IMG/VR virus record: IMGVR_UViG_3300027754_000211
Coordinates: 1 to 39,240 of that record
Strand: one strand, 5' to 3'
Source of the DNA: a virus
Length of the DNA stretch: 39,240 nt
The translations under genes and the position numbers were made by a program. Positions 2,840-16,365 of the stretch are shown here, in pieces (the stretch's first letter is position 1; each line of letters begins with the position of its first letter). A model generated the notes under the pieces. The model was not told where the DNA came from. It worked only from the letters and a program-made list of their open reading frames with translations, and made no database searches.

Positions 2840-3276
2840 TGGCAAATTTATCATCAAATACATATTTAGAAAGTGGGATGCATCAGTATGGTATCTTTAC
2901 ATTAAATAATACCAATGGTGCAAATGGAACATATATTCATATGGAAACCAATATAACTCAACCATCTTCAAATATTATGGTTATGATTGAAGCAGTTGGA
3001 TATAATTATGGAACATCTCTACCAATTAGATGTGCATGGAATTTTTATTCATATGCATATGTAATAGGTAATGTAAATAATTCATCATATACCGGATTGA
3101 GTGCAGATGGTGTATATTACGCTACGTCGGGGTATGTAGCAATTAGAGCGTATGCAAGTAATTTACATTATTGTGGATTTACATTAAATGCATATCAAGT
3201 AGCAGGGAATGGATACCAACAACCAATATCAATAAGAAGAGCATCACAAAACACAACATCAGGAACATATTATTAA
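2839..3276 (+). CDS. Small probable fibre-tip protein, paralogue 2 of 3
   Basis: 145 residues from the ATG at 2839, which overlaps the previous stop by one base. An upstream in-frame ATG at 2758 lies inside the previous gene and is not preferred. The protein keeps the family signature: Y-I-H-M-E-T-N, V-M-I-E-A-V-G-Y-N-Y-G, R-C-A-W-N-F-Y-S-Y, G-V-Y-Y-A-T-S-G-Y, F-T-L-N-A-Y and a final Y-Y. The first ~25 residues and the loops differ most between the three paralogues, while the core is conserved, as expected for a duplicated surface module. Function is not known. Confidence 0.75.
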   Translation: MANLSSNTYLESGMHQYGIFTLNNTNGANGTYIHMETNITQPSSNIMVMIEAVGYNYGTSLPIRCAWNFYSYAYVIGNVNNSSYTGLSADGVYYATSGYVAIRAYASNLHYCGFTLNAYQVAGNGYQQPISIRRASQNTTSGTYY

Positions 3277-3278
3277 TT

Positions 3279-3725
3279 ATGGCAACACTACAAGCACCTT
3301 TAAGAATTTATCCAAATAGTACATGGTCACTCCAACAAAGATATATTGGTGCATTTAATACTGGTTCCGGCAGTCCAACTTATATTCATATCAAAACAAA
3401 TTTAAGTACGGGTGGTGATGTTATGTATATGTTTGAAGCAGTCGGTTATAATTATGGAAATGGAAATAGTGTAAGATGTGCATGGGGATTGTATGCTTAT
3501 CAAAATGTTTTATATCATACAGGTGTACAAACCGCATATGGTGGATTATCTGCAGACGGAATATATGTATCATCGGATAATTATGTATGTTTAAGGGGAT
3601 ATATGAACTCACATTATTATCAAGGATTTATAATAAATGCATATCCAACCAGAACCGATACTACACACTACAATGTTTCAATAACGGCAATATCGCAAAA
3701 TTCAACATCGGGAAATTATTATTAA
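3279..3725 (+). CDS. Small probable fibre-tip protein, paralogue 3 of 3
   Basis: 148 residues from the ATG at 3279, two bases after the previous stop. The longer in-frame ORF from 3171 would overlap paralogue 2 by about 100 bases and is rejected. The signature is again present: Y-I-H-I-K-T-N, M-F-E-A-V-G-Y-N-Y-G, R-C-A-W-G-L-Y-A-Y, G-I-Y-V-S-S-D-N-Y and a final Y-Y. Three adjacent, coupled and diverged copies argue for tandem duplication followed by divergence. A role in host binding is inferred from the position only. Confidence 0.75.
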   Translation: MATLQAPLRIYPNSTWSLQQRYIGAFNTGSGSPTYIHIKTNLSTGGDVMYMFEAVGYNYGNGNSVRCAWGLYAYQNVLYHTGVQTAYGGLSADGIYVSSDNYVCLRGYMNSHYYQGFIINAYPTRTDTTHYNVSITAISQNSTSGNYY

Positions 3726-3736
3726 AATTATATATT

Positions 3737-4012
3737 ATGCATAGACAATTTAGAGACAACAACGGAGACATTCATTTTTTAATACAAGGTGAACCACAAG
3801 AAGATTGGGTAGAAATAATTATTGACCCAAATCAATTACCTGACCCTAACTATCAAATACCATATGATGCACAAAGAATGCATTCATATCCATCATTGGG
3901 AAATCAATTAGATATGTTATGGCATGAACTAAACAATAGTGGAAGTTTGACAACAAATGGTGAGTGGTTTAACAAAATTAAAGAAGTTAAAGACAATAAT
4001 CCAAAACCTTAA
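3737..4012 (+). CDS. Small fibre-associated protein (assembly or structural)
   Basis: 91 residues from the ATG at 3737 (11 nt after the previous stop). The in-frame start at 3587 would run through paralogue 3 and is rejected. The sequence is acidic and Pro-rich. Its second half has Y-P-S-L-G-N-Q-L-D-M-L-W-H-E-L, then a Trp and an I-K-E-V-K-D-N-N-P-K-P ending. This Y-P-x-x-G-x-Q-L-D-x-L-W pattern with a VK..NPKP end recurs in small proteins next to tail-fibre genes in many myoviruses (family recognition from memory). It probably assists or decorates the fibres. It closes the 1-4012 transcription block. Confidence 0.7.
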   Translation: MHRQFRDNNGDIHFLIQGEPQEDWVEIIIDPNQLPDPNYQIPYDAQRMHSYPSLGNQLDMLWHELNNSGSLTTNGEWFNKIKEVKDNNPKP

Positions 4013-4020
4013 TTTATTTG

Positions 4021-4029
4021 ATATTTATA
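4021..4029 (+). promoter_or_regulatory. Putative late promoter box ATATTTATA
   Basis: Exact 9-mer, 16 nt before the ATG at 4046 and 9 nt after the preceding stop. One of ten exact copies that sit at block starts in this window. Confidence 0.6.
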
Positions 4030-4045
4030 CAAAACAAAGTTAAGG

Positions 4046-7000
4046 ATGATTCAATATAACCCCACCGTATCAGGAAGTTTAGTTGTTACAGGTTCGTTAA
4101 TAACAACTGGTAATATTAACGGAATAAATCTTTCAACATTTAGTGCATCTATAAATAATGCCCTAACGGAAAGTAAAGTAACACATATTGTTTCAGCATC
4201 GGCTGGAATTTATTATATAGATGGTACTTCAAAACCATCCATGTCAGTTGTACCTGGTTTAACTTATAGATTTGAAACAGCTATTGTAGATATTTCTCAT
4301 CCATTCAAATTTTCAACATCACAAAACGGCCCTATACAATATGTCAATGGTGTAACAAGTGGTTCTAATTTTATTCAATTAGAAGTTAATTATGATACTC
4401 CAGACGTATTATATTATTATTGTACAATTCATAATAATATGGGTAATGCAATAAATGTATTAAAAATTGATAAATTATTAACTGTAGTTAGTTCTTCATT
4501 TGATTCAAGATATGTAATTAGTGGAAGTATTACTCAAACTACATGGGACAACATCGCATCAAAACCTGCGGGAATTGTAAGTAGTTCAGTACAAGTTTTA
4601 GGAGGAACAGGTACAGTATCGGGTTCTTCACAACTAACCGCATCAGCATTAGCAACAACAGGTTCAAATACATTTATAGGTAATCAAAATATTAGTGGTA
4701 CACTTTATTTAACCGGTTCTTTAATTCCAAGTGGTAGTTTTGTATACGATTTAGGTTCAGAAACAAATTCTTTTAGAGATTTATTTATTTCAACTGGTTC
4801 TATTAGATTTCATAACCCAGATGGAACTGAACAAGGTAGAATTACAGTTGATGCAAGAAGTGGTGATATATCACTATTAAAAACTGCAGGTTTAACAAAT
4901 GAACAAAAAGCAACAATTAGTCAAGGAAATATTAATCCTACTTTTTTAAGTGCAATATCGGCATCAAATTTATTTGTTCAAACTAAAATAGTAATGCCAG
5001 CCGGGGGAACGGTAAATGGTATAAATTTAACTGCATTTAGTTCTTCGGTTTCAAATACTATATTAAATCAAAATAGTGCAACAAGTTCATACGAAACAAA
5101 GGGTAGAGGAATTATTAGTGGAAGTTCTCAATTAGACGGAACTACGATTACAAATTTAACAGTAACAAATTTGACAACTGTTAATGAAACTGCAAGTGTT
5201 ATTTTTAGTAGTGGTTCAAATAGATTCGGAGATTTTGGTGATGACATACATAATTTTACCGGGTCAGTTCAAATAACAGGTTCATTTACTTTAGTAGGTT
5301 CTTCAACTGCGACATCTTATAATGGTATAATAAACGCAACTAATGGTGTTGTATCAGGTTCTTCACAAGTAGTGAGTATATTAAGTTCTCTAAATACCTA
5401 TACGGGTTCACAAGATACTAAAAACTCAACTCTTGCAACTTATACTGCAAGTTTAGATACAAAGAATTCAACCCTTGCAACTTATACTGCAAGTTTAGAA
5501 ACAAAAAATTTAACTCTTGCAACTTATACTGCAAGTTTAGAAACAAAAAATTTAACTCTTGCAACTTATACTGCAAGTTTAGATACTAAAAACTCAACCC
5601 TTGCAACTTATACTGCAAGTTTAGAAACAAAAAATTTAACTCTTGCAACTTACACTAGTTCAGTAGATACAAAATTTACATCAGTAGGAATAAGTACAGC
5701 ATCATTAAACACATACACATCTTCTCTTAAAACCGCGTTACAGTTAACAGGTTCAAATGTGGTTGTATTAGGTGATTTAACTGTATTAGGAACAACATCA
5801 ACTGCAAATTCAACAACATTAAATGTTAGTGACAAATTTATAACTTTAGCATCCGGTTCAACAACATCGGCACTAGCAAACGGAGCAGGTTTCCGTATAG
5901 CAGGTGCAAATGTTACTATGAGTTGGGAGTCTGCAAATTCACAATTAAAATTTAATACGGACATTTCTGCATCAAAATTTTATGGTGATGGTACAGGTTT
6001 AACATTTAACGGAAGTGGAATTGTATCAGGTTCATCTCAAATAGTGAGTATATTGAGTTCGGTAAATACCTATACAGGTTCAAATGATACAACTAATACT
6101 GCACAAAATGCAAGATTGACAACAATAGAAAGTGTTACAGGAAGTTATGAAACAAAGGGTAGAGGCATAGTATCAGGTTCTTCACAAGTAACCGGAATTG
6201 GAAATGCACAATTAACTAATAGTTCAACTACTATTGGTACAACTACAATCTCTTTAGGTGCAAGTTCAACTACATTAGCAGGTTTAACATCAGTAACCTC
6301 AACTGCATTTGTAGGAGCATTGACAGGTAACGCTTCAACAGTAACAACAAACGCAAACTTAACGGGTGATGTAACTTCAGTAGGTAATGCAACAACGATA
6401 GGTGCAGCAAAAGTAACAAACGCAATGTTAGCAGGTTCAATATCAAATGCTAATTTAGCAAATAGTTCAACTACTATTGGTACAACTGCAATTTCATTGG
6501 GTGGAACTGCAACAACAATAGCAGGTTTAACATCGGTAACATCAACTGGATTTACAGGAGCATTGACAGGTAACGCATCAACCGCAACAACTGCAGCCGC
6601 ATTAACAACTGCAAGAACAATCAACGGAACATCTTTTGATGGTTCTGCTAATATTACTATTCCAAGTTTAGTTTCAGGGTCAGCTCAAATAACAATGGCA
6701 TCAACTACCGGATTTGGAACATATATAAATCAGGCAGTATTAACTACATCAACACCAACATTTGCAAGAGTAACAACACCAAAAATAGCATTTGAGCGTA
6801 ATGCAAATACTGCACATGGTATAAGTTGGTATAATATTAGTACATATACTGCTTGGTGTGATTATATGGCTAATGGTGGAGCAACAAGTACGGGACCAAC
6901 GGGTAATATAACCGCATCAACGGGAACTTATGTAACGTCTTGGGCTCGTCGTTTCTTTGTTGAAGATTCAAGCACATATGGGTGGATATTTGAGAAGGGT

Positions 7001-7312
7001 GGGGTTGCCGGAACTTCCCCAACAGTTGTTGCTGAGCTACGTTCATCAGATGGTTTATTCAGTACGGCGGGAGAAATATATTCAGCAGGTAGTTTAGTTA
7101 AAACATCTGCAAACTCATCATACTCAACAACATTTACATCGGTATCATCCGTATCAGTAACACATAGTTTGGGTACTAAAAATGTAATGGTAATGTGTTA
7201 TGATAGTAGTGATGAGATGTTTTGGCCAGCAACGATTAAAACAACTTCGACATCCGTAGTAGACATTACATTCACAACAGCTAGAACAGGAAGAGTAGTT
7301 ATAATAAGATAA
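4046..7312 (+). CDS. Long tail fibre with cupredoxin-like domain and 14-residue repeat stalk
   Basis: 1088 residues. Residues ~1-45 are a short fibre-type head (VSGSLVVTGSL pattern). Residues ~45-145 look like a cupredoxin beta-sandwich with H85 in S-H-P-F and C126-T-I-H129-N-N-M132, the C-x2-H-x2-M spacing of amicyanin. Residues ~310-345 repeat, base for base, the start of the fibre at the left edge of the window. Residues 458-541 are six copies of a 14-residue repeat (TKN-S/L-TLATYTASL-E/D), probably a trimeric stalk. The C-terminus (~1030-1088) has V-T-H-S-L-G-T-K-N-V-M-V and an F-T-T-A-R-T-G-R-V-V-I end, resembling terminal beta-domains of phage adhesins. There is no S74 domain, unlike the other three fibres. 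It is a virion protein; the copper site is inferred from sequence only. Confidence 0.85.
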   Translation: MIQYNPTVSGSLVVTGSLITTGNINGINLSTFSASINNALTESKVTHIVSASAGIYYIDGTSKPSMSVVPGLTYRFETAIVDISHPFKFSTSQNGPIQYVNGVTSGSNFIQLEVNYDTPDVLYYYCTIHNNMGNAINVLKIDKLLTVVSSSFDSRYVISGSITQTTWDNIASKPAGIVSSSVQVLGGTGTVSGSSQLTASALATTGSNTFIGNQNISGTLYLTGSLIPSGSFVYDLGSETNSFRDLFISTGSIRFHNPDGTEQGRITVDARSGDISLLKTAGLTNEQKATISQGNINPTFLSAISASNLFVQTKIVMPAGGTVNGINLTAFSSSVSNTILNQNSATSSYETKGRGIISGSSQLDGTTITNLTVTNLTTVNETASVIFSSGSNRFGDFGDDIHNFTGSVQITGSFTLVGSSTATSYNGIINATNGVVSGSSQVVSILSSLNTYTGSQDTKNSTLATYTASLDTKNSTLATYTASLETKNLTLATYTASLETKNLTLATYTASLDTKNSTLATYTASLETKNLTLATYTSSVDTKFTSVGISTASLNTYTSSLKTALQLTGSNVVVLGDLTVLGTTSTANSTTLNVSDKFITLASGSTTSALANGAGFRIAGANVTMSWESANSQLKFNTDISASKFYGDGTGLTFNGSGIVSGSSQIVSILSSVNTYTGSNDTTNTAQNARLTTIESVTGSYETKGRGIVSGSSQVTGIGNAQLTNSSTTIGTTTISLGASSTTLAGLTSVTSTAFVGALTGNASTVTTNANLTGDVTSVGNATTIGAAKVTNAMLAGSISNANLANSSTTIGTTAISLGGTATTIAGLTSVTSTGFTGALTGNASTATTAAALTTARTINGTSFDGSANITIPSLVSGSAQITMASTTGFGTYINQAVLTTSTPTFARVTTPKIAFERNANTAHGISWYNISTYTAWCDYMANGGATSTGPTGNITASTGTYVTSWARRFFVEDSSTYGWIFEKGGVAGTSPTVVAELRSSDGLFSTAGEIYSAGSLVKTSANSSYSTTFTSVSSVSVTHSLGTKNVMVMCYDSSDEMFWPATIKTTSTSVVDITFTTARTGRVVIIR
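4980..5100 (+). repeat. 121-bp exact repeat shared with 1-121
   Basis: Second copy, inside the 1088-residue fibre gene and in the same reading frame. Identity at silent positions implies recent conversion or duplication. Confidence 0.9.
5417..5668 (+). repeat. Six 42-bp tandem repeats in fibre stalk
   Basis: Six copies of a 14-codon unit (TKN-S/L-TLATYTAS-L-E/D), near-identical at DNA level. Fourteen residues equal two heptads, which suits a coiled-coil stalk whose length can change by unequal exchange. Confidence 0.9.
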
Positions 7313-7315
7313 TAT

Positions 7316-8425
7316 ATGATAAGAGAATCAATGACGGTAACCGGTTCCGTAGACGTAAGTAGTGAATTTGTCTTACCATATGGAACAAGAGAAAATAGAC
7401 CATCATCTCCGGATAGTGGTTCTTTATATTTACAAACATCTCAAACGGGTAGTGCAATTTGGGTTTATAGTGGTGTAGCAAATAGAGAATTAGGTTGGGA
7501 AGTATTGGGTGAACAAAATGATTATGCTCCAACGTTTTTTTATAGACAAATTATAAATTATGCATATACGGCGGGTGGATATATAAATTCATCTCCGTGG
7601 AAAACTGTTCATAAAACAGTAGCAGCAACTGACCAAACAACAAATATAGGAGACCTATTAGATTATCCATCGTCATATTCATCAGGAGCATGTAGTAAGA
7701 GTATTTTATTTATGTGGTCGGTAAATACAAGTGGTGCATGGAGGTCGGCAACCGATGTTGCAGATACATATACATCGGCAGTTAATATGGTTAATGAAAC
7801 AAATTATGCACATCAATCTAAATTTGATATGACATATGCAAGAGATAACTTAGGAACGGTGTGGCAAGAAACTGAATTTGCATGGATGTTTGGTGGTAGT
7901 GTATCTAATGTTGAAAAATTCAATTTAACAAATGAATCAATGTATGTCCGTTCAGGCTGGACTTCATTAACATCTACATTGGGTTGTGCAGGAATGTCTG
8001 ACCAAGATTGGGGATATGTTTATGGTTCGGAGAGTGGTATTAAAGTTGCATACGCAACCGATAGTGTATATACAACCACACAATGGGGCCCATCAGGACA
8101 ACAAAAAGGTATTAGTTCTAAAATAGGAAGAGGATATTGTGGTAATGAGGGAACATATAATGGTGGATATAACTTAAGAAGATGGCAATTAAAAAACGAA
8201 ACTAATTTGGGAACCGTTCCAAAACCACATCCAAATTGTGGAGAAGAAAACTTTACACTAGGACAAGATTGGCAATATATGGTAGGCAATTATGATGGTA
8301 CTGGACAAAATAACACTAGCTGGAAATTTTATTATACAACCGAAAGTGGAACTGTAAACCCATCTGGATTAGCACCAACTGCACATGGTGGCCAATCATC
8401 AGGACATTGCGGATGGAGAAACTAA
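7316..8425 (+). CDS. Fibre-associated virion protein, paralogue A
   Basis: 369 residues, start 3 nt after the previous stop. The N-terminus (residues 1-55) carries the VTGS segment and a G-T-R-E-N-R-P-S-S-P-D-S-G-S-L-Y pattern typical of phage fibre attachment regions. The rest is a repeated aromatic/Gly beta structure with S-S-P-W-K-x-V-H-K-x-V-x-A-T-D-Q-T, E-T-E-F-A-W-M-F-G-G and several Q-K-G-I-S-S-K / R-R-W-Q segments, possibly propeller-like. It ends in C-G-W-R-N. It is the same length as the next gene and clearly homologous along its whole length. I recall similar sequences among T4-like marine phage structural proteins without known function. Virion location is inferred from the module. 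Confidence 0.7.
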   Translation: MIRESMTVTGSVDVSSEFVLPYGTRENRPSSPDSGSLYLQTSQTGSAIWVYSGVANRELGWEVLGEQNDYAPTFFYRQIINYAYTAGGYINSSPWKTVHKTVAATDQTTNIGDLLDYPSSYSSGACSKSILFMWSVNTSGAWRSATDVADTYTSAVNMVNETNYAHQSKFDMTYARDNLGTVWQETEFAWMFGGSVSNVEKFNLTNESMYVRSGWTSLTSTLGCAGMSDQDWGYVYGSESGIKVAYATDSVYTTTQWGPSGQQKGISSKIGRGYCGNEGTYNGGYNLRRWQLKNETNLGTVPKPHPNCGEENFTLGQDWQYMVGNYDGTGQNNTSWKFYYTTESGTVNPSGLAPTAHGGQSSGHCGWRN

Positions 8426-8434
8426 AAATTTACA

Positions 8435-8443
8435 ATATTTATA
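8435..8443 (+). promoter_or_regulatory. Putative late promoter box ATATTTATA
   Basis: Exact 9-mer, 16 nt before the ATG at 8460, in the short gap between the two paralogues. Spacing is identical to the box before 4046. Confidence 0.6.
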
Positions 8444-8459
8444 AAAAAGATATTAAGAT

Positions 8460-9569
8460 ATGATATACGAAAATTTGGTAGTTACCGGTTCACTTAAAGT
8501 AACATCAGGATTAGTGGGTGTTCCAAAAAACACAAAGGCAAATAGACCGGGTAGTCCTACTTCGGGGTCTTTATTTTTTCAACAATCTCCAAGTTCTAGT
8601 TTGTTATATGTTTATACGGGTATACCTAATAACGATAGTGGTTGGGAAGCAGTGGGTAACCAAGCTGCACCTTATAATTCATTCAAATATCGTCAAATTA
8701 TTAACTATGGATATGTTGCCGGTGGTTATAAAGATTCATCTCCATGGAAAAATGTTCATAAAGCAGTATCCGCAACCGACCAAACATCACATTTAGGACA
8801 ATTAATGGATTATCCCGCGAACTATACAAAAGGTGCATGTAGCAAAACAATTCTTTGGATATTTTCCTCAAATACAGGCAATGCATTCACAGGCCCCTCT
8901 ACAGTTTCGGACACATATACTACGGCAGTTAATATGGTAACCGAAACAGGATATACACACCAAACTAAATGGGATATCACAACAGCAAGAGCAGATTGTG
9001 GTGTAATGTTTCAAGAAACAGAGTTTGCATTTATATTCGGTGGATATGCTTCAACTGTAGATGTTTTTAATATGACAACCGAAATATGTTTAACAGGACA
9101 AGGATTATCATCGGTTGGTGGTGCAGAGACCTCTACCGCATTTTCCGATGAAAATAGTGGATATGGTTATACCGATAGTGTAGGAATAAAAATGAATTAT
9201 GCAAATAGAACATTTACTTCAACAACACAATGGGGAGCACATGGTCAACAAAAAGGAATTAGTAGTAAAAATGGTAAGGGATATGCTGGAAATGAAGGTT
9301 CTTATAATGGTGGAAACAATTTAAGAAGATGGCAATTTTCAACAGATACTAATGCCGGTAATGTAACTAAACCAGAAACTAATACGGGAGAAGAAAACTT
9401 TACAATGGGACAAGATTGGCAATATATGTTGGGTAATTATAATGGTTTACAAAATAATAATAACTGGAAGTTTTATTACGCAACCGACAGTGGAACTGCA
9501 GGAGTTAGTGGTTTATCACCAACCGCACAGGCAGGCCAATCATCAGCAATTTGTGGATGGAGACAATAA
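8460..9569 (+). CDS. Fibre-associated virion protein, paralogue B
   Basis: 369 residues, homologous throughout to the preceding gene: same N-terminal VTGS and K-A-N-R-P-G-S-P-T-S-G-S-L segment, Y-R-Q-I-I-N-Y, S-S-P-W-K-N-V-H-K, A-T-D-Q-T, E-T-E-F-A-F-I-F-G-G, N-N-L-R-R-W-Q, G-Q-D-W-Q-Y-M and a C-G-W-R-Q ending. Divergence is spread along the length rather than confined to a cassette, so this looks like an older duplication than the fibre-shaft repeats. Unlike paralogue A, it has its own upstream promoter box. Probably a second adhesin or fibre-connecting protein; function unproven. Confidence 0.7.
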   Translation: MIYENLVVTGSLKVTSGLVGVPKNTKANRPGSPTSGSLFFQQSPSSSLLYVYTGIPNNDSGWEAVGNQAAPYNSFKYRQIINYGYVAGGYKDSSPWKNVHKAVSATDQTSHLGQLMDYPANYTKGACSKTILWIFSSNTGNAFTGPSTVSDTYTTAVNMVTETGYTHQTKWDITTARADCGVMFQETEFAFIFGGYASTVDVFNMTTEICLTGQGLSSVGGAETSTAFSDENSGYGYTDSVGIKMNYANRTFTSTTQWGAHGQQKGISSKNGKGYAGNEGSYNGGNNLRRWQFSTDTNAGNVTKPETNTGEENFTMGQDWQYMLGNYNGLQNNNNWKFYYATDSGTAGVSGLSPTAQAGQSSAICGWRQ

Positions 9570-9596
9570 TATTTGGAAAATTGAAAAAAATTAAGT

Positions 9597-9605
9597 ATAT
9601 TTAGA
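9597..9605 (+). promoter_or_regulatory. Variant late promoter box ATATTTAGA
   Basis: One mismatch to ATATTTATA, 24 nt before the ATG at 9630 in a 60-nt gap with an A-rich leader. It probably starts the 9630-14474 operon. Confidence 0.4.
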
Positions 9606-9629
9606 ATTAATAAAAACAAAAGTTATAAA

Positions 9630-10400
9630 ATGCAAAACGAATTAAAATACGAACAAACAAGATTTTTAGAAGATGAATTAGATGTAAAACTAATTTCAGT
9701 AGCACAAGATTTATCATTCTCCACACCAAAATACAAACTTGATAACTTTGTAGGTGGTGCACAAATTACACCATATGCCAAAATTAAACAATGGTTTATG
9801 GAATTAAGAGCAAGAGAAGATGCGGTTGAACATTTGGAATATCTGGTTAAGAAAAAAGAAATTGAATTAGAAATTGAAGCAGAGAAATTAGAATTTGTAA
9901 CCGATGAAAAGAAAAAGAAATTAATTCAATTAGAAATTTTTGACGGTAATATTGATTTAAGAAAATATAAAAGAAGTCTAAACGATGCCTATAAAGAAAG
10001 AAAATCAATTATAGATTTAATCAAAAGTTTTTTAGATAGTGAAGATGGAAAATTACCAAATGGTGAATCTTTTATGGAAGTATTTAAGCAACCAGAATTA
10101 GAAGCACATTATGAACATGAATATTGGACGGTAAGAATGGCAAAACAGGCAATGTTAGATATGGTTTCTTATGGTAGATTGGGAACAGGTAATTTAGATT
10201 CAATTTTAATGATGAAACCTGAACAACAACAGCAAGTATTATCATTAACTGCACAATATGCTATTACAATGGAAAGAAATGTAAATGAGTTAATGGGAAG
10301 AGCGGCAACAGGAGAACCATTACCATTATTAGAACAAAAATTGAAAGAACAATTAAAATTAGGTTCCGTTAGTAATCAAATAAACGAACAATTATTATAA
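9630..10400 (+). CDS. Uncharacterised phage protein with coiled coil
   Basis: 256 residues, soluble, highly charged. Residues ~60-135 (E-E-I-E-L-E-I-E-A-E-K-like, then K-K-K-K-L-I-Q-L-E) read as a long coiled coil, followed by a helical region with E-Y-W-T-V-R-M-A-K-Q-A and a Gln-rich stretch. There is no signal peptide. I do not recognise the family. It begins a run of six genes with gaps of 0-5 nt and overlaps the next gene by one base (TAATG), so the two are probably translated together and may work together in fibre assembly. Confidence 0.65.
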   Translation: MQNELKYEQTRFLEDELDVKLISVAQDLSFSTPKYKLDNFVGGAQITPYAKIKQWFMELRAREDAVEHLEYLVKKKEIELEIEAEKLEFVTDEKKKKLIQLEIFDGNIDLRKYKRSLNDAYKERKSIIDLIKSFLDSEDGKLPNGESFMEVFKQPELEAHYEHEYWTVRMAKQAMLDMVSYGRLGTGNLDSILMMKPEQQQQVLSLTAQYAITMERNVNELMGRAATGEPLPLLEQKLKEQLKLGSVSNQINEQLL

Positions 10401-11134
10401 TGATACACATTTTATTCAAACCAGTAAACACACCGGGTTATATTAAAGTAATAGGAACATATTTGAATTATTCAGTAGGTAGAATACCTGATGAATATTG
10501 TGATAATAGAGTTGAACTACATAAAATAGATGCAATTGTAATTCCAGAAAATATTGCACCTGGATATAAATTTGCAGACATATATGGAGATTATGTATCC
10601 GTTAAAAAGAATACACAACTTGCCGAAGACTTTTCTTTATTACAATCCGATGAAGACCAGACAATAAAAGTTAGATACTTCTTAACGGAAGAAGATAGAC
10701 AATTGGCTGTAACTTTTAATAAAATTGTAATGAAAAAAATTATAAGTGATAGATTTACCGAAAGATTGAAAGAATTGATGTTTGACGCATCACTATTAGA
10801 AAAAGCAACTTGGGAAGAACAAAAAAGAGAAGCATTATTATATCAATCGGACAATACGGCAAATACTCCTTTAATTGATATTTTAGCAATCGGAAGAGAA
10901 TTAACAAAAGTTGAATTGGTAACAAAAATTATCAATAATGTAAACACATATAATACAGCATTAGCAAACTTATTAGTTGAACAACAACAATTGGAGCAAA
11001 GAGTAAAAGCATGTGTAACTATTGCAGATTGTCATAGATTAAGACATGAGAAATTTGGATTTAGTGTTAGTTATCAACAACAAATGGATGAAAATATTCC
11101 AACAACCCCATTGACACTTCAAATGGATTTCTAA
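10400..11134 (+). CDS. Probable tail-fibre assembly-type protein
   Basis: 244 residues. The second half contains A-T-W-E-E-Q-K-R-E-A-L-L-Y, a T-P-L-I-D-I-L-A-I-G-R segment, then repeated helices with V-x-K-I-I-N-N-V and Q-Q-L-E-Q-R-V-K-A-C. This pattern resembles the helical DUF4376-type region of tail-fibre assembly chaperones (recognition from memory; moderate). The first ~120 residues are mixed beta and were not recognised. Coupled to the previous gene by a one-base overlap. Could instead be a structural protein. Confidence 0.5.
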   Translation: MIHILFKPVNTPGYIKVIGTYLNYSVGRIPDEYCDNRVELHKIDAIVIPENIAPGYKFADIYGDYVSVKKNTQLAEDFSLLQSDEDQTIKVRYFLTEEDRQLAVTFNKIVMKKIISDRFTERLKELMFDASLLEKATWEEQKREALLYQSDNTANTPLIDILAIGRELTKVELVTKIINNVNTYNTALANLLVEQQQLEQRVKACVTIADCHRLRHEKFGFSVSYQQQMDENIPTTPLTLQMDF

Positions 11135-11139
11135 ATTTT

Positions 11140-11784
11140 ATGGAAAATAGTTATTTAGATACTTACGAATATGGTTTAATTGCAACCGATATGGTGGATA
11201 TTACTATTCTACCAACTTTATGTGAAAAAATATTAGGAAAGGAAGAATATATAAAAAATCTAAATGACAAATCCAGAGTTCCATTCAAATATGTAAATAA
11301 AGATAGTATCACCCAATATCACTATTATTATAGTTTAATGGAATTAGGTATTGAAGAAGTTGATATAATTGTTGTAAAAATAAAAGAACTGGTTTTCAAA
11401 TTATTTGGTTGGGAAACATTTTATCTTAAAATGTGGGGAAACATATATCGCAAAGGAGACTATATAGGATTACACAAACATATGGATAATAAAAGTCATA
11501 CAAAATATCCATACGCAATAAGTGGACATTGTTTTGTACATTCCACACAACCAACTGCAACTACATTCTTTTTTAGAAATCATAAAAAAAGCCCACACGA
11601 CTCTACTTTCAAAGAGCTGGATGTTCCAAATATTCCTGGTGAAATTACATTATTTTCATCTTATATAGAACACGAATTCAAACAATGGGATGGTGATTTG
11701 AGAATTAGCTTGGCATTTGATATTAATAACCAACCGGATGCTGATATTGAATTATTAGAAAAATGGAAATTTATAAAAGTATAA
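11140..11784 (+). CDS. 2OG-Fe(II) oxygenase, prolyl-hydroxylase-like
   Basis: 214 residues. The C-terminal half has the double-stranded beta-helix pattern of small 2-oxoglutarate/Fe(II) dioxygenases: M-W-G-N-I-Y-R-K-G-D-Y, H112-K-H114-M-D116 (HxD iron motif), I-P-G-E-I-T-L-F-S-S followed by H178, and R188-I-S-L-A-F-D, where the Arg binds 2-oxoglutarate. The order and spacing fit the putative 2OG-FeII_Oxy_5-type family. Such enzymes hydroxylate protein side chains or other small substrates; the substrate here cannot be read from sequence. It sits next to fibre genes and three further redox/SAM enzymes in the same operon, which suggests late modification of virion or envelope components (inference). 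Confidence 0.8.
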   Translation: MENSYLDTYEYGLIATDMVDITILPTLCEKILGKEEYIKNLNDKSRVPFKYVNKDSITQYHYYYSLMELGIEEVDIIVVKIKELVFKLFGWETFYLKMWGNIYRKGDYIGLHKHMDNKSHTKYPYAISGHCFVHSTQPTATTFFFRNHKKSPHDSTFKELDVPNIPGEITLFSSYIEHEFKQWDGDLRISLAFDINNQPDADIELLEKWKFIKV

Positions 11785-11785
11785 T

Positions 11786-12784
11786 ATGAATTTTGCAATA
11801 AATGGTTCCTGTTCTAAAGGTTGTTCATTTTGTTTCACCAAAGAAGATGCTAGATTAAAACATACATTGGGTGAAATGAGTATTGATATGGCTGAAAAGT
11901 TAATAACTCATTACAAAATAAAAGATAATAGGGAAGAAATTACAATATTAGGTGGAGAACCTACTCAACATTCAAACTTTTCAGGTTTAATTGATTATAT
12001 ATTTTCCAAAGGCCTTAAAGTTAATTTAGTTAGTAATTTATTATTTGGAAATATTATAAAAGATTATCTAATTAATAATATTAGAAATATCAAATGGATG
12101 TTACCAAATGCAGCAGAATTGGATGAGAAAAATAGATTACCAATATTCAAAAAGAATTATTTAGAATTATATCATGCATACCAAAATACATGGGGATTTG
12201 AAGAAAGTCCAAGATTGTATTTAGCATTAACCATTTCATCGGATTGGGAAAAACGAAACATATATGAATATATTAAATGGTTATATTTGGCATTAGATGG
12301 TAAAGTAAATGCAATTCGTTTAGGAATAGATTTGACAGGAACATACTTACTTAATAATAAAGAATTGGGTAAAGAAATAACAAAGATTTTGAAATTTGGA
12401 GAATACAATGATATTTTAATTACATCGGATTGTCAAGTTCCACCCTGTTTATGGGAAGGAAAAACAAAAGAAGCTGTATACGAAAATTCGTTGGGATTTG
12501 CAACTTTCAAAATAGCAAACTATGATACGATTTGTGGATATATGCCATTGGATGTTTTTCCGGATGGTAGTTCTATTCATTGTTATCCGTTACAAGACAA
12601 AGTAAAAATAGATAATGTATTAAATATTGTGGGTGAAGATAGACCACAAAGTTTAAGAGATACATTTGATAATTTATATATTGAAAACCATAAAAATTAT
12701 ACACTACCTACAATATGTCAGGAGTGTACATTCTACCCAAATGATTGTAATGGAATTTGTGGTGGATGTTTAGAAGGAAATTAG
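11786..12784 (+). CDS. Radical SAM protein with SPASM-like C-terminal cysteines
   Basis: 332 residues, start one base after the previous stop. C9-x3-C13-x2-C16 at the very N-terminus is the [4Fe-4S] motif of radical SAM enzymes, followed by L-G-G-E-P-T (SAM binding) at ~55-60. The C-terminal ~100 residues contain C-Q-V-P-P-C, I-C-G-Y, a P-D-G-S-S-I-H-C segment, and a final cluster C-Q-E-C-x6-C-x3-C-x2-C. This layout is that of SPASM/twitch domains that carry auxiliary Fe-S clusters. SPASM proteins mostly modify peptides or proteins. No separate small precursor peptide gene is visible nearby, so an existing phage or host protein could be the substrate. The class is strongly supported; the reaction is not. 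Confidence 0.85.
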   Translation: MNFAINGSCSKGCSFCFTKEDARLKHTLGEMSIDMAEKLITHYKIKDNREEITILGGEPTQHSNFSGLIDYIFSKGLKVNLVSNLLFGNIIKDYLINNIRNIKWMLPNAAELDEKNRLPIFKKNYLELYHAYQNTWGFEESPRLYLALTISSDWEKRNIYEYIKWLYLALDGKVNAIRLGIDLTGTYLLNNKELGKEITKILKFGEYNDILITSDCQVPPCLWEGKTKEAVYENSLGFATFKIANYDTICGYMPLDVFPDGSSIHCYPLQDKVKIDNVLNIVGEDRPQSLRDTFDNLYIENHKNYTLPTICQECTFYPNDCNGICGGCLEGN

Positions 12785-12786
12785 TT

Positions 12787-13812
12787 ATGAAAAAAATATT
12801 CTCAGTCCCACTTAATCCAATGATTTCCGAAAAAGATTTCTTTGAAAAGTTTTACCCATTCTTACACAAATATAAAGATTGGATTTATGACATTTATTTT
12901 ACTTGTAGAGTACCACCATTTGGACAAGATGCAATGGGTTCTGTATTTGTATCGGAAGATAAAACGACTTTATTTGATAATGCATTAATGATACAAAAAT
13001 CTTTAGGTATTAGAATCAGTGCAACTTTCAATAATGTAAATATATCACCAAAGTATGACAATTATAAATTATTTGTTGACAACTTAAAACCTTTATACGA
13101 TAGAGGATTGAGATGCATTACTATTCCACATGCACATTGGGTATCAATGGGTTTACACAATGAGTTTCCTGAAATGGAAATTAAAAATACAATTCTTAGA
13201 AAGGTTGCAACTGGACAAGATTTTATCTATGCAGCAGAACAAGGATTTGACTATGTTAATTTGGATAGAATATTAATGAGAGACATTGAAGAATTAAAAA
13301 ATATCAAAAGAGCACAAACTCACTTCTACGAAAAAACAGGTAAATATGTTAAAATATCTTTACTTACAAACGAAGGATGTTTGGGCAGATGTCCTATGAT
13401 GGATGAACATTACTCTTATAATAATTTAAGAGAAGATAATGAACTTCCATATTTTAGACATGAAATATCAAAACATACTTGTGAATATAAATGGGAAGAT
13501 GAGATTAACGCATTCTTCTTTAAGACGGGAGTAATTCCACCATTTAAGAAAGAGTATGATGAGTTTTTGGAGTATATTGATGTCTTTAAGATGCATGGTA
13601 GGGATAGTTTGAACAGATTGGATGAAACCATTGAAATCGTATCAAACTACGCAGAAGGTAACGAAATACTTGCTAATGCATCGGAGATTTATTTGGATGG
13701 AATACCTTCGGAAGAATTGAGAGGTTGGAGAAATAAAATTAAAAAATGTAAATTTCAATGTTGGGATTGTAATTATTGTGAAATTGTTGCAGAACATAAA
13801 AAGAAAAAATAA
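12787..13812 (+). CDS. TIM-barrel protein resembling peptidase U32 family
   Basis: 341 residues from the ATG at 12787, three bases after the radical SAM stop. An in-frame ATG at 12757 would overlap that gene and begins poorly. The middle has I-T-I-P-H-A-H, a F-D-Y-V-N-L-D-R-I-L-M-R-D segment, then V-K-I-S-L-L-T-N-E-G-C-L-G-R-C-P; the last part ends in C-K-F-Q-C-W-D-C-N-Y-C. The D-R-x-L-x-R-D strand followed by a G-C-L-x-x-C turn is reminiscent of U32 'peptidases' (YhbU/UbiU type), which bind a [4Fe-4S] cluster and act in RNA or ubiquinone hydroxylation. The number of cysteines supports a metal cluster. Family assignment is moderate; a radical-SAM partner role is an alternative. Confidence 0.55.
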   Translation: MKKIFSVPLNPMISEKDFFEKFYPFLHKYKDWIYDIYFTCRVPPFGQDAMGSVFVSEDKTTLFDNALMIQKSLGIRISATFNNVNISPKYDNYKLFVDNLKPLYDRGLRCITIPHAHWVSMGLHNEFPEMEIKNTILRKVATGQDFIYAAEQGFDYVNLDRILMRDIEELKNIKRAQTHFYEKTGKYVKISLLTNEGCLGRCPMMDEHYSYNNLREDNELPYFRHEISKHTCEYKWEDEINAFFFKTGVIPPFKKEYDEFLEYIDVFKMHGRDSLNRLDETIEIVSNYAEGNEILANASEIYLDGIPSEELRGWRNKIKKCKFQCWDCNYCEIVAEHKKKK

Positions 13813-14474
13813 TGGACTTAATTGAACATATAGAAAAATCATTACATTGGTCTGATTTGGAAGTATCTAAATTAAGACAAGATGTATTAGACATTCCAGG
13901 AATTAGTAGTAACAAAGTTAAAATGTTTTTGAATAACCTTTGTAGTTTGCCCAATTCAACATATTTGGAAATTGGAGTATATAGAGGTTCAACATTTTGT
14001 TCAGCAATTTATGGTAATGATATAACAGCAATTGGAATTGATAATTGGAGTGCACCATTCATAACACCATCTAACCCAACACATAAAATGAATTCAATAT
14101 TTAAGCAAAGGGCTGAAAACCCAAAGGATGAATTTTTGAATAATGTAAAAAAGTATGGTAAGGTAGAAAACATAAAAGTATTTAGAGCAAATTATTTGGA
14201 TTTTGATTATACAACAATTCCACAAGTTGATATTATTTTTTATGATGGTGAGACTAAATTTTTTGACAGATATAATATAATAAAAAAATTATTACCTGCA
14301 ATGAAAAATGAATGTATTATAATATTTGATGATTGGAATTGGGAAAATGATAAAGCACTACAATCAATAAAAGATAGTGGTTTATTTATAAAATACCAAA
14401 AAAACATATATACAAAAGGTGAAGATGCAACCGATTATTGGAATGGATTGGGTATCTTTATCTTACAAAAATAA
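13812..14474 (+). CDS. Class I SAM-dependent methyltransferase
   Basis: 220 residues, start overlapping the previous stop (TAATGG). Residues ~55-62 hold motif I (Y-L-E-I-G-V-Y-R-G-S-T), followed by I-G-I-D-N-W (acidic SAM ribose ligand), a D-I-I-F-Y-D-G-E segment and I-I-F-D-D-W-N-W. This is the pattern of Methyltransf_24-type enzymes, often found with sugar or tail-modifying genes. The substrate is unknown. It closes the coupled set oxygenase, radical SAM, U32-like, methyltransferase. No transcription terminator was found behind it, so transcription may run on into 14501. Confidence 0.8.
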   Translation: MDLIEHIEKSLHWSDLEVSKLRQDVLDIPGISSNKVKMFLNNLCSLPNSTYLEIGVYRGSTFCSAIYGNDITAIGIDNWSAPFITPSNPTHKMNSIFKQRAENPKDEFLNNVKKYGKVENIKVFRANYLDFDYTTIPQVDIIFYDGETKFFDRYNIIKKLLPAMKNECIIIFDDWNWENDKALQSIKDSGLFIKYQKNIYTKGEDATDYWNGLGIFILQK

Positions 14475-14500: not shown

Positions 14501-15373
14501 ATGAAAAAACAGCTATCGCTTTTGTTAGCAACATTGTTTATTGTAATTGCTTCATTTAGTCAATATAGTAGCAGTGCAATAAAACAGGGAGTTGGTGAGG
14601 TTAAAAAGGACACAATAGAAAACACTTTGGAAGAAGTGATTGTATCTGCAAAACCTTATCCTCAATTTAAGTTAGTTGGTGACTACAAACAACCAGCATG
14701 GACATTAGTCCGCAAGTTTCCATCTACAAGAGTATATGTAATGACACCTCCGGGTACTATTATGTATGAAAAGTGGTTTGATGTTAGAACTCCAAGAGAT
14801 GGGTCACCTTCCGAAGTTAGAATGAGAGATGAATTTGCATTTGGACTTGGTAAAAGATTGGAATTAGATTTTTATATGCATACGGTCTATAAAAACAACA
14901 ACGAAGCTTTATCTACATTTGGATTTAGAGGATTTAGTTGGGAAGTTAGATATGCATTGGCAGATTGGGGTAAAATTCCAGGCAATCCAACACTTTATTT
15001 TGAACACAAACTATTAAACCAAAAAAGACAAGGCATAGAACCTAAGATTTTATTGGGAGATAGAATTGGTAAAAAAGGTATTTGGGGTTTGAATTTAATT
15101 TTAGAAGCAGATGTTGCAAAATTAAGAAAAGACCAAAATAGAGAGTGGGCATACACAGCATCTTATGGAAACATCGTTAATGATGATTTAACAATGGGAA
15201 TTTCTCATATGTTTAGATATAATGATGTAAAACAAACACAAGAGTGGTATGTCGGCCCATTGGTTCAGTATCGTTTTAACGGACATGGTTATTTGAATGT
15301 CGAACATATGCCAGGTTTGAATGACGCTGCAAAAAAATCTAGAACCATAATAATATTTGGATGGAGATTTTAA
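14501..15373 (+). CDS. Secreted small outer-membrane barrel with TonB-box-like segment
   Basis: 290 residues. M-K-K followed by a hydrophobic stretch L-S-L-L-L-A-T-L-F-I-V-I and A-S-F-S-Q is a clear Sec signal peptide of the Bacteroidota type. Residues 43-50 read L-E-E-V-I-V-S-A, close to the TonB box of TonB-dependent transporters. There is no room for a plug domain. The remaining ~200 residues alternate polar and aromatic residues like beta strands (L-E-L-D-F-Y-M-H, T-L-Y-F-E-H-K, W-G-L-N-L-I-L) and end in F-G-W-R-F, the C-terminal Phe typical of BAM-assembled barrels. The leader is A/C-rich like host genes. The gene overlaps the next by 13 nt. It is likely a moron acting on the infected cell, not a virion part; function inferred. 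Confidence 0.7.
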   Translation: MKKQLSLLLATLFIVIASFSQYSSSAIKQGVGEVKKDTIENTLEEVIVSAKPYPQFKLVGDYKQPAWTLVRKFPSTRVYVMTPPGTIMYEKWFDVRTPRDGSPSEVRMRDEFAFGLGKRLELDFYMHTVYKNNNEALSTFGFRGFSWEVRYALADWGKIPGNPTLYFEHKLLNQKRQGIEPKILLGDRIGKKGIWGLNLILEADVAKLRKDQNREWAYTASYGNIVNDDLTMGISHMFRYNDVKQTQEWYVGPLVQYRFNGHGYLNVEHMPGLNDAAKKSRTIIIFGWRF

Positions 15374-16365
15374 TTAAAGGACAAGAATTTCTTATCTATT
15401 TAATGTTAATAATGTTCATAACAGGTATCCTCAAAGAAAGAGGGTACCTGATGGACGTTTTTAAGTTATTGGAACAAAGGGTAAAGTCAAAAAGATTAGT
15501 AGTATTTTTAGTATCACTATTTGGAGGTATCTTACCAATTCCAGGTAGAGTTGCAATTTCGGCAAGTATGTTGAATACCATTGCACCTATCGATAGACAG
15601 AAAAGAAAGAAATTTGGTGTGATTGATTATTTAGCAACACATCATTATTACCTGTGGTCTCCCTTAGAAAAAACAGTTATTATTCCTATGGCAGTTTTGG
15701 GATTGACTTATATGCAATTTATGTCATACATTTGGCCACTATTACTAATATCGGGTTTATACATTGGATATTATATTACATCATTAAAAGAAGATGAGAT
15801 TGAAATTGATACAAAAGATGAACCTATAAATTGGAAGAACATTGGATTGGTAGTTTTACCCTTCCTTTTGACAATATTAATAAGTTGTGTTACGGATTAT
15901 TACTTTGCAGCATTTACTGCATTTACGACTTATTTAATAACATATTCAAATAGTTGGAAAAAACTATTAAGTTATATCAACTGGCAATTGGTTTTTATTG
16001 TTGCCGGTATAATTATATTAGGTAATTTTATCAACTCATACTATTCATTAATGGAATCTTATATAAAAACATATAATAATCCAAAAAATATATTAGTAGT
16101 ATCAGTTATTTCATTTTTAGTATCGTTTTTATTGGGGTCATCAACTAAGTATGCAAGCATAGTTAGTTTGTTGACAAGTGTGTTTGGAATGCATTATTTT
16201 GTATTATTTTTTACATTAGAATATTCGGCATATTTGATATCACCATCCCATAAATGCTTGCCAATAGGTCAAAAATATTTCCACACCGGATTTATGACAT
16301 ACTTAAAGGCATTGATAATTTGGATAAGTATTATGATAACATATGCTATCACAACTATTTTGTAA
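15361..16365 (+). CDS. DUF401-family integral inner-membrane protein
   Basis: 334 residues with about nine or ten hydrophobic segments. After the second segment comes G-G-I-L-P-I-P-G-R-V-A-I-S-A, and near the end I-S-P-S-H-K-C-L-P-I-G-Q-K-Y-F; both are landmarks of DUF401 membrane proteins, a group related to ion/organic-acid permeases. Bacterial members are somewhat longer, so this is a compact version. The ATG lies inside the last codons of the outer-membrane gene, which predicts translational coupling and a joint role of the two membranes. A transporter function is inferred from the family; no substrate is known. Membrane permeases of this kind are unusual between tail-fibre genes. Confidence 0.75.
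   Translation: MEILIKGQEFLIYLMLIMFITGILKERGYLMDVFKLLEQRVKSKRLVVFLVSLFGGILPIPGRVAISASMLNTIAPIDRQKRKKFGVIDYLATHHYYLWSPLEKTVIIPMAVLGLTYMQFMSYIWPLLLISGLYIGYYITSLKEDEIEIDTKDEPINWKNIGLVVLPFLLTILISCVTDYYFAAFTAFTTYLITYSNSWKKLLSYINWQLVFIVAGIIILGNFINSYYSLMESYIKTYNNPKNILVVSVISFLVSFLLGSSTKYASIVSLLTSVFGMHYFVLFFTLEYSAYLISPSHKCLPIGQKYFHTGFMTYLKALIIWISIMITYAITTIL

Follow-up and report, generated by a model that had tools for sequence, protein, structure and literature searches.

A U32-like enzyme and a methyltransferase coupled to Kelch-type propeller fibers in an IMG/VR virus lineage and in cyanophages

Gene organization of the locus

We analyzed a 39,240-base IMG/VR virus record (IMGVR_UViG_3300027754_000211, positions 1 to 39,240; hereafter the window), which carries myovirus tail fiber, sheath, tube, and baseplate genes. 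This study concerns four enzyme genes, designated A to D, at positions 11140-14474, together with the two Kelch-type β-propeller fiber genes and two accessory genes upstream of them. A preliminary description had presented A to D as a four-enzyme operon (2-oxoglutarate (2OG) oxygenase, radical S-adenosylmethionine (SAM) enzyme, U32-like protein, and methyltransferase) modifying the virion or envelope. The features of the region are as follows.

7316..8425, + strand: Kelch-type β-propeller fiber, paralog 1 (phrog_1417; homolog of the cyanophage T4-GC351 "sericin 1 precursor-like" protein)
8460..9569, + strand: Kelch-type β-propeller fiber, paralog 2, presumed substrate (AlphaFold2 (AF2) model, Foldseek, cyanophage match)
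9630..10400, + strand: accessory protein g1409 (phrog_1409; cyanophage T4-GC353)
10400..11134, + strand: accessory protein g1604 (phrog_1604; cyanophage T4-GC352)
11140..11784, + strand: A, 2OG-Fe(II) oxygenase, optional (PF13759, phrog_81)
11786..12784, + strand: B, radical SAM enzyme with a SPASM-type Cys layout (PF04055, invariant Cys pattern)
12787..13812, + strand: C, U32-like TIM barrel with seven invariant Cys, presumed Fe-S hydroxylase (phrog_1458, AF2/Foldseek)
13812..14474, + strand: D, class I SAM methyltransferase (Methyltransf_24), presumed O-methyltransferase (PF13578, C-terminal half of phrog_1458)
14501-15373, in the window: E, Bacteroidota-style signal peptide, no family
15361-16365, in the window: F, DUF401/CitMHS-like membrane protein

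All four enzyme genes are intact and lie on one strand, and the ratio of nonsynonymous to synonymous substitution (dN/dS) against relatives was 0.08-0.31 for each, indicating that they are real genes under purifying selection and not chance open reading frames (ORFs). Its spacings of 2, 1, and 0 nucleotides (nt) need correction: A and B are separated by 1 nt and B and C by 2 nt, while C and D overlap by 1 nt. A start for C at TTG 12757 was rejected because it falls inside B and ATG 12787 matches the conserved N-terminus. Close packing begins upstream of A, with a 1-nt overlap between g1409 and g1604 and a 5-nt gap between g1604 and A; it thus continues upstream to 9630, giving a unit of at least six genes. 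Because gaps do not exceed 5 nt from 9630 to 14474, no ORF fits between the genes and there is no space for the precursor gene of a ribosomally synthesized and post-translationally modified peptide (RiPP), in agreement with the earlier remark that none was visible. Profile searches of A-D matched no RiPP recognition element (RRE)/PqqD peptide-recognition domain. A promoter and terminator scan returned signals at or below shuffled expectation and is uninformative on transcript boundaries.

Conservation of the module and its linkage to the propeller fiber

About 95 related IMG/VR loci share a fixed gene order of propeller fibers, g1409, g1604, (A), B, C, and D, usually followed by E and F. C comes directly after B in 66/66 testable loci, g1409 adjoins the module in all testable relatives, and g1604 lies upstream of B in 71 of 72 testable loci. 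About one in ten relatives also carries A, inserted before B. When the search was seeded with the fiber, C was found downstream in 33/33 testable loci close to the window and in 21/21 testable loci of a distant type. Each of g1409 and C was detected in 123 of 50,697 annotated phage records; the comparison covered the totals and the tallies by organism name, which agree for both. The fiber query matched 132 phage records, and among the matches listed the weakest (P-SSM7, S-CAM22, and S-H38) cover only the N-terminal 58-59 residues.

All 123 records containing a C homolog are from cyanophages, and in those examined it is fused to D as T4-GC354. Loci of this type are ordered propeller fiber, g1604, g1409, and C-D, and B is absent; a search of the 50,697 records with B gave no match. 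Homologs of the fiber, GC352, GC353, and GC354 occur together in the window, which places it with the T4-GC351-352-353-354 module of Syn19, P-HM2, and S-ShM2 (naming of PMC3037559). Both encode a homologous propeller fiber, the two accessory proteins, and C and D among the structural genes, whereas the cyanophage version has C and D fused, the accessory order reversed, and no B. In the records examined, GC351-354 are annotated as hypothetical or sericin-like, with no function proposed. Between g1409 and C-D, S-ShM2 carries additional genes, 2OG oxygenases among them. Two IMG/VR loci contained C-D with no fiber in the retrieved stretch; both have the pattern OG2-minorcoat-OG3-C-D, as in S-ShM2, where the fiber is further upstream.

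Exchange and duplication of the unit were also observed. The cyanophages P-HM1 and P-HM2, both of which infect MED4, are assigned to a single species (Eurybiavirus PHM2). At the site between GC513-514 and GC517-519, P-HM2 carries GC351-352-353-354 plus GC585-586, and P-HM1 carries another putative fiber (GC515), GC516, and a PF13759 2OG oxygenase. Elsewhere in P-HM1 (positions 1-181000 of 181044), the only trace of the quartet proteins was a short match to the fiber N-terminus. S-SM1 lacks g1604, g1409, and C-D and has only short fiber-like matches, with other genes and four 2OG-type oxygenases at the site. The 2OG oxygenases beside the alternative fibers of P-HM1 and S-SM1 support the idea that each fiber brings its own hydroxylase. 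Three loci (L227, positions 3081-13015; L230; and L224, which is truncated where the first copy begins) each hold two diverged, side-by-side copies of the fiber/g1604/g1409/C-D quartet in one phage.

Gain, loss, swap, and duplication all move the fiber, g1604, g1409, and C-D jointly, so these genes constitute one unit, and the coupling of the enzyme set to the propeller fiber is well supported. The proposed four-enzyme operon therefore has to be redrawn: A is optional, B is absent from the cyanophages, in which C and D are fused, and the unit extends further upstream. The preliminary description had named independent occurrence of the enzymes in relatives as contrary evidence; A does occur independently, and so does B when lineages are compared, whereas C-D and the fiber link hold together. 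Its idea of an enzyme set tied to fiber genes is supported by the adjacency of B and C (66/66), by the fiber-seeded scans (33/33 and 21/21), and by the equal counts of C and g1409 (123 each); the Ser/Thr/Gly-rich fibers it suggested as substrate (16413 onward) are not supported, as the linked fibers are the Kelch propellers at 7316-9569. The observation is thus confirmed and the interpretation partly supported, with a different fiber and a different core.

Enzymes C and D

C matches phrog_1458 (E 8e-94), corresponding to its first 295 positions, with D at positions 303-519. The AF2 model of C is a TIM barrel (predicted local distance difference test score (pLDDT) 82, predicted template modeling score (pTM) 0.83), and its best Foldseek match in the PDB is the U32 protein 5d88 (E 7e-7, TM 0.44/0.58), that is, a U32-type barrel. 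Searching the C sequence against the PDB gave chance matches only, and against plasmids no match. A profile of C recovered proteins in 16 further genomes of the phylum of a Syntrophaceae bin described below; several of these relatives (E about 1e-20) score above the PF01136 threshold, and some show weak matches to TrhP and UbiU. By its fold match and through these PF01136-passing relatives, C is a distant member of the U32 superfamily. It contains N-E-G-C-L-G-R-C-P and seven invariant Cys including a C-terminal CX3CX2CX2C, which are candidate [4Fe-4S] ligands. The conserved motifs are DAMG, S-TFNN, KNT-L, DR-L-RD, NE-C-G-CP-M-EH, K-HGR, and WR--I--C-F-CW-C--C.

D passes PF13578 (Methyltransf_24; E 9.2e-8, 33.4 bits against a cut-off of 26.3), and its motif I, YLEIGVYRGSTF, is conserved, as expected of a class I SAM methyltransferase. 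Also conserved are YLE(I/V)GVxxGxT, IFYD(G/A)(D/E), and DDxN, and the D...DDxN pattern is suggestive of a metal-assisted O-methyltransferase. PF13578 was the only family above cut-off, and D is thus not in the COMT-like family (PF01596).

UbiU/UbiV and RlhA are O2-independent hydroxylases of the U32 family, with a TIM barrel, conserved Cys, and Fe-S-dependent hydroxylation. C shares the barrel and conserved Cys with them; it has seven invariant Cys with the C-terminal CX3CX2CX2C, and its substrate presumably differs. In Bacillus subtilis, the U32 hydroxylases TrhP1/TrhP2 and the O-methyltransferase TrmR are encoded in one operon, and U34 of tRNA is hydroxylated and then methylated (PMC6599085). 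The likeness lies in pairing a U32-superfamily enzyme with an O-methyltransferase, and a C-D fusion would join both chemistries in one chain. The differences are that the B. subtilis substrate is tRNA U34 and no fiber is involved, that TrmR is COMT-like whereas D is Methyltransf_24, and that C has no direct TrhP or PF01136 match.

Enzymes A and B

A passes PF13759 (E 2.9e-8, 34.4 bits against a cut-off of 27), matches phrog_81 (E 8e-16), and holds the HxD...H...R motif as HMD...H...R, which identifies it as a 2OG-Fe(II) oxygenase. It belongs with the cyanophage oxygenases of the same families, others of which lie beside the alternative fibers and in the S-ShM2 module region; in the window lineage, by comparison, it is optional.

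B passes PF04055 (E 6.5e-9, 36.6 bits against a cut-off of 29.5) and is a radical SAM protein whose CX3CX2C cluster motif is the invariant C9-x3-C13-x2-C16. Further invariant residues form C250-x10-G-x4-C266 ... C311-x2-C314-x6-C321-x3-C325-x2-C328. Compared with the SPASM layout (CX9-15GX4C, gap, CX2CX5CX3C, gap, C), one spacing is off by one residue, and the Pfam SPASM profile was unmatched. B did not reach the NCBIfam equivalog cut-offs, and its profile had no match in the PDB. Radical SAM/SPASM maturases such as anSME and the RiPP maturases have the CX3CX2C motif in common with B, whose auxiliary Cys layout resembles theirs, whereas the window unit has neither an RRE/PqqD domain nor a precursor peptide. 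The class motifs given in the preliminary description were all recovered: HMD...H...R in A, CX3CX2C plus C-terminal Cys in B, NEGCLGRCP in C, and motif I in D.

Among plasmid proteins, the closest relative of B belongs to a RiPP-like cluster on pTs417 of Thiodictyon (L331, 8576-14653); this cluster contains two radical SAM proteins with PqqD-like domains, an amidohydrolase, YcaO, and TfuA.

Propeller fibers and neighboring genes

The two fiber paralogs are 56% identical. Paralog 1 matches phrog_1417 and is homologous to cyanophage GC351. The AF2 model of paralog 2 (pLDDT 77, pTM 0.78) is a Kelch-type propeller. Foldseek matches it best, within the PDB, to Kelch domains of Keap1/KLHL12 (TMt up to 0.79), and among viral proteins the best match of paralog 2 is a cyanophage sericin 1-like protein (E 9e-27). 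Such propeller heads on fibers are plausible and probable receptor binders.

In the window lineage, the propeller fibers terminate in SSGHCGWR plus 0-1 residue. The second fiber lacks the GHC of this tail in 15/15 A-bearing loci (7 distinct tail pairs), and GHC is kept in nearly all loci without A (exceptions L006, L007, L026, and L099), an association confounded by common descent. As an obligate modification site of C, the tail was rejected, because the C-linked fibers of L107, L180, and L204 lack it. The fiber W-x-N motif (SPWKNV) was set aside as a radical SAM cross-link site, since it also occurs in cyanophage fibers without B.

In L006 and L007, E and F are 97-98% identical, against 63-81% for the neighboring fibers and enzymes, which suggests that E-F were recently exchanged. 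Homologs of F (about 37%) are likewise found next to the module in L224 and L230, and L228 and L229 also contain F homologs. Elsewhere in the window, among the baseplate genes, a protein at 35670-36941 matches DNA polymerase A (PF00476) below the threshold.

Cellular relatives of C

Close homologs of C were found in three bacterial bins, on two Syntrophaceae contigs (L104 and L105) and one Desulfocapsa contig (L103). In Desulfocapsa (L103, 1-4313), the homolog (46% identical) is flanked by an RTX calcium-repeat protein on one side and, on the other, by a type I secretion transporter of the peptidase-C39 ABC class, a setting that by analogy is a cellular parallel to surface-protein modification. 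In the Syntrophaceae, the homologs stand beside a second Cys-rich protein, GNATs, TauE, and sulfate-activation-type genes, with a sulfotransferase further upstream in L104 and two tandem C copies in L105; these gene groups possibly represent an undescribed biosynthetic cluster. More distant relatives of C in Desulfobacterota (L360-L362) adjoin molybdopterin hydroxylase subunits, and one of them also has a UbiD gene close by, a setting that hints at aromatic substrates.

Proposed function and alternatives

We consider it somewhat probable that these genes form a fiber-cognate maturation module: C would hydroxylate the propeller fiber and D would O-methylate it, and B, sometimes joined by A, would introduce an additional modification. 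The Kelch-type propeller proteins are probably the receptor-binding heads of the phage, and g1409 and g1604 may assemble or present the fiber. C would then hydroxylate a propeller residue through its Fe-S center without O2, and D would methylate the newly made hydroxyl; since C and D are fused in other phages, they probably act in series. B would add one more change to the fiber in the window lineage only, and A an O2-dependent hydroxylation in a minority of phages. Because C-D follows one fiber type nearly everywhere, we infer that this fiber is the C-D substrate. Speculatively, the invariant Tyr or Trp of the propeller are candidate sites, because the characterized relatives of C hydroxylate aromatic rings, if C follows them. 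Methylated tail-fiber residues in virions of Cellulophaga (Bacteroidota) phages (PMC13288928) provide a precedent, although there Lys/Arg methylation is attributed to presumed host enzymes, as opposed to the phage-encoded, fiber-linked module of the window.

Several points weigh against fiber modification. The proposal is drawn from gene context, and linkage indicates functional coupling, not substrate identity. To our knowledge, all characterized U32 hydroxylases act on RNA or quinones and none on protein. The fold match of C to U32 is moderate (TM 0.44/0.58), and C itself matched neither PF01136 nor any other family in the Pfam search. No single fiber residue stands out as the modification site. 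Contig counts are not independent, as many are near-duplicates and C represents about 24-40 lineages at 85-90% identity. Finally, the varied cellular settings of the Syntrophaceae and Desulfobacterota homologs imply that the C family as a whole is not fiber-specific.

Alternatively, the enzymes may synthesize or trim a glycan or other small molecule that decorates the fiber, virion, or host envelope, with the fiber carrying or reading the product. Methyltransf_24 includes small-molecule and sugar O-methyltransferases, some cellular relatives of C lie near sulfate activation genes, a sulfotransferase, and GNATs, and the conserved neighbor F is a DUF401 membrane protein. However, the unit contains no glycosyltransferase, nucleotide-sugar, or ligase gene, several cyanophage quartets have C-D as their sole recognizable enzyme, and the quartet is gained and lost with the fiber itself, so that we regard this explanation as unlikely. 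A match to sugar-metabolism enzymes had been named in advance as evidence against a fiber-directed pathway, and no nucleotide-sugar pathway match was found.

A nucleic-acid substrate seems to us rather unlikely. Here C would hydroxylate a pyrimidine, as TrhP and RlhA do, and D would methylate it, as TrmR does, yielding a 5-methoxyuridine (mo5U)-like tRNA or hypermodified phage DNA, and the fiber link would be a modular coincidence. The enzyme pairing is that of trmR-trhP1-trhP2 in B. subtilis (PMC6599085), and in cyanophage S-B43 the tRNA enzyme CmoA has been co-opted to hypermodify DNA (PMC12783734). Yet C-D closely co-occurs and co-duplicates with one fiber type, was swapped along with the fiber between P-HM1 and P-HM2 in the same host, and is located in the structural region, and D is Methyltransf_24 and not COMT-like. 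That C-D are auxiliary host-takeover genes hitchhiking in an exchange hot spot beside the fibers is quite improbable, because, even though the variable site downstream of cyanophage fibers holds many unrelated auxiliary genes, one would expect C-D with other fibers or without g1409/g1604, and almost no such case occurs in the sets examined.

If fiber maturation is correct, it could be the first case of a U32-superfamily enzyme acting on protein, in which an O2-independent Fe-S hydroxylase, either fused or coupled to an O-methyltransferase and extended in the window lineage by a SPASM-type radical SAM enzyme, matures a receptor-binding propeller, and in which each swapped fiber comes with a cognate U32- or 2OG-type hydroxylase. 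We offer this fuller formulation tentatively, as possible rather than probable. In the literature searched, no description of the module was found, and its composition appears to be undescribed.

The range of cells open to infection by a phage is set by its receptor-binding proteins. Should the proposed maturation hold, host recognition in abundant aquatic phages would depend on post-translational chemistry that sequence-based host prediction and recombinant fiber work ignore, U32 hydroxylases would extend from RNA and quinones to proteins, and T4-GC354, unannotated in 123 phage records, would gain a function. Because P-HM1 and P-HM2 are cultured, belong to one species, share one host, and differ in the cassette, the question is directly testable.

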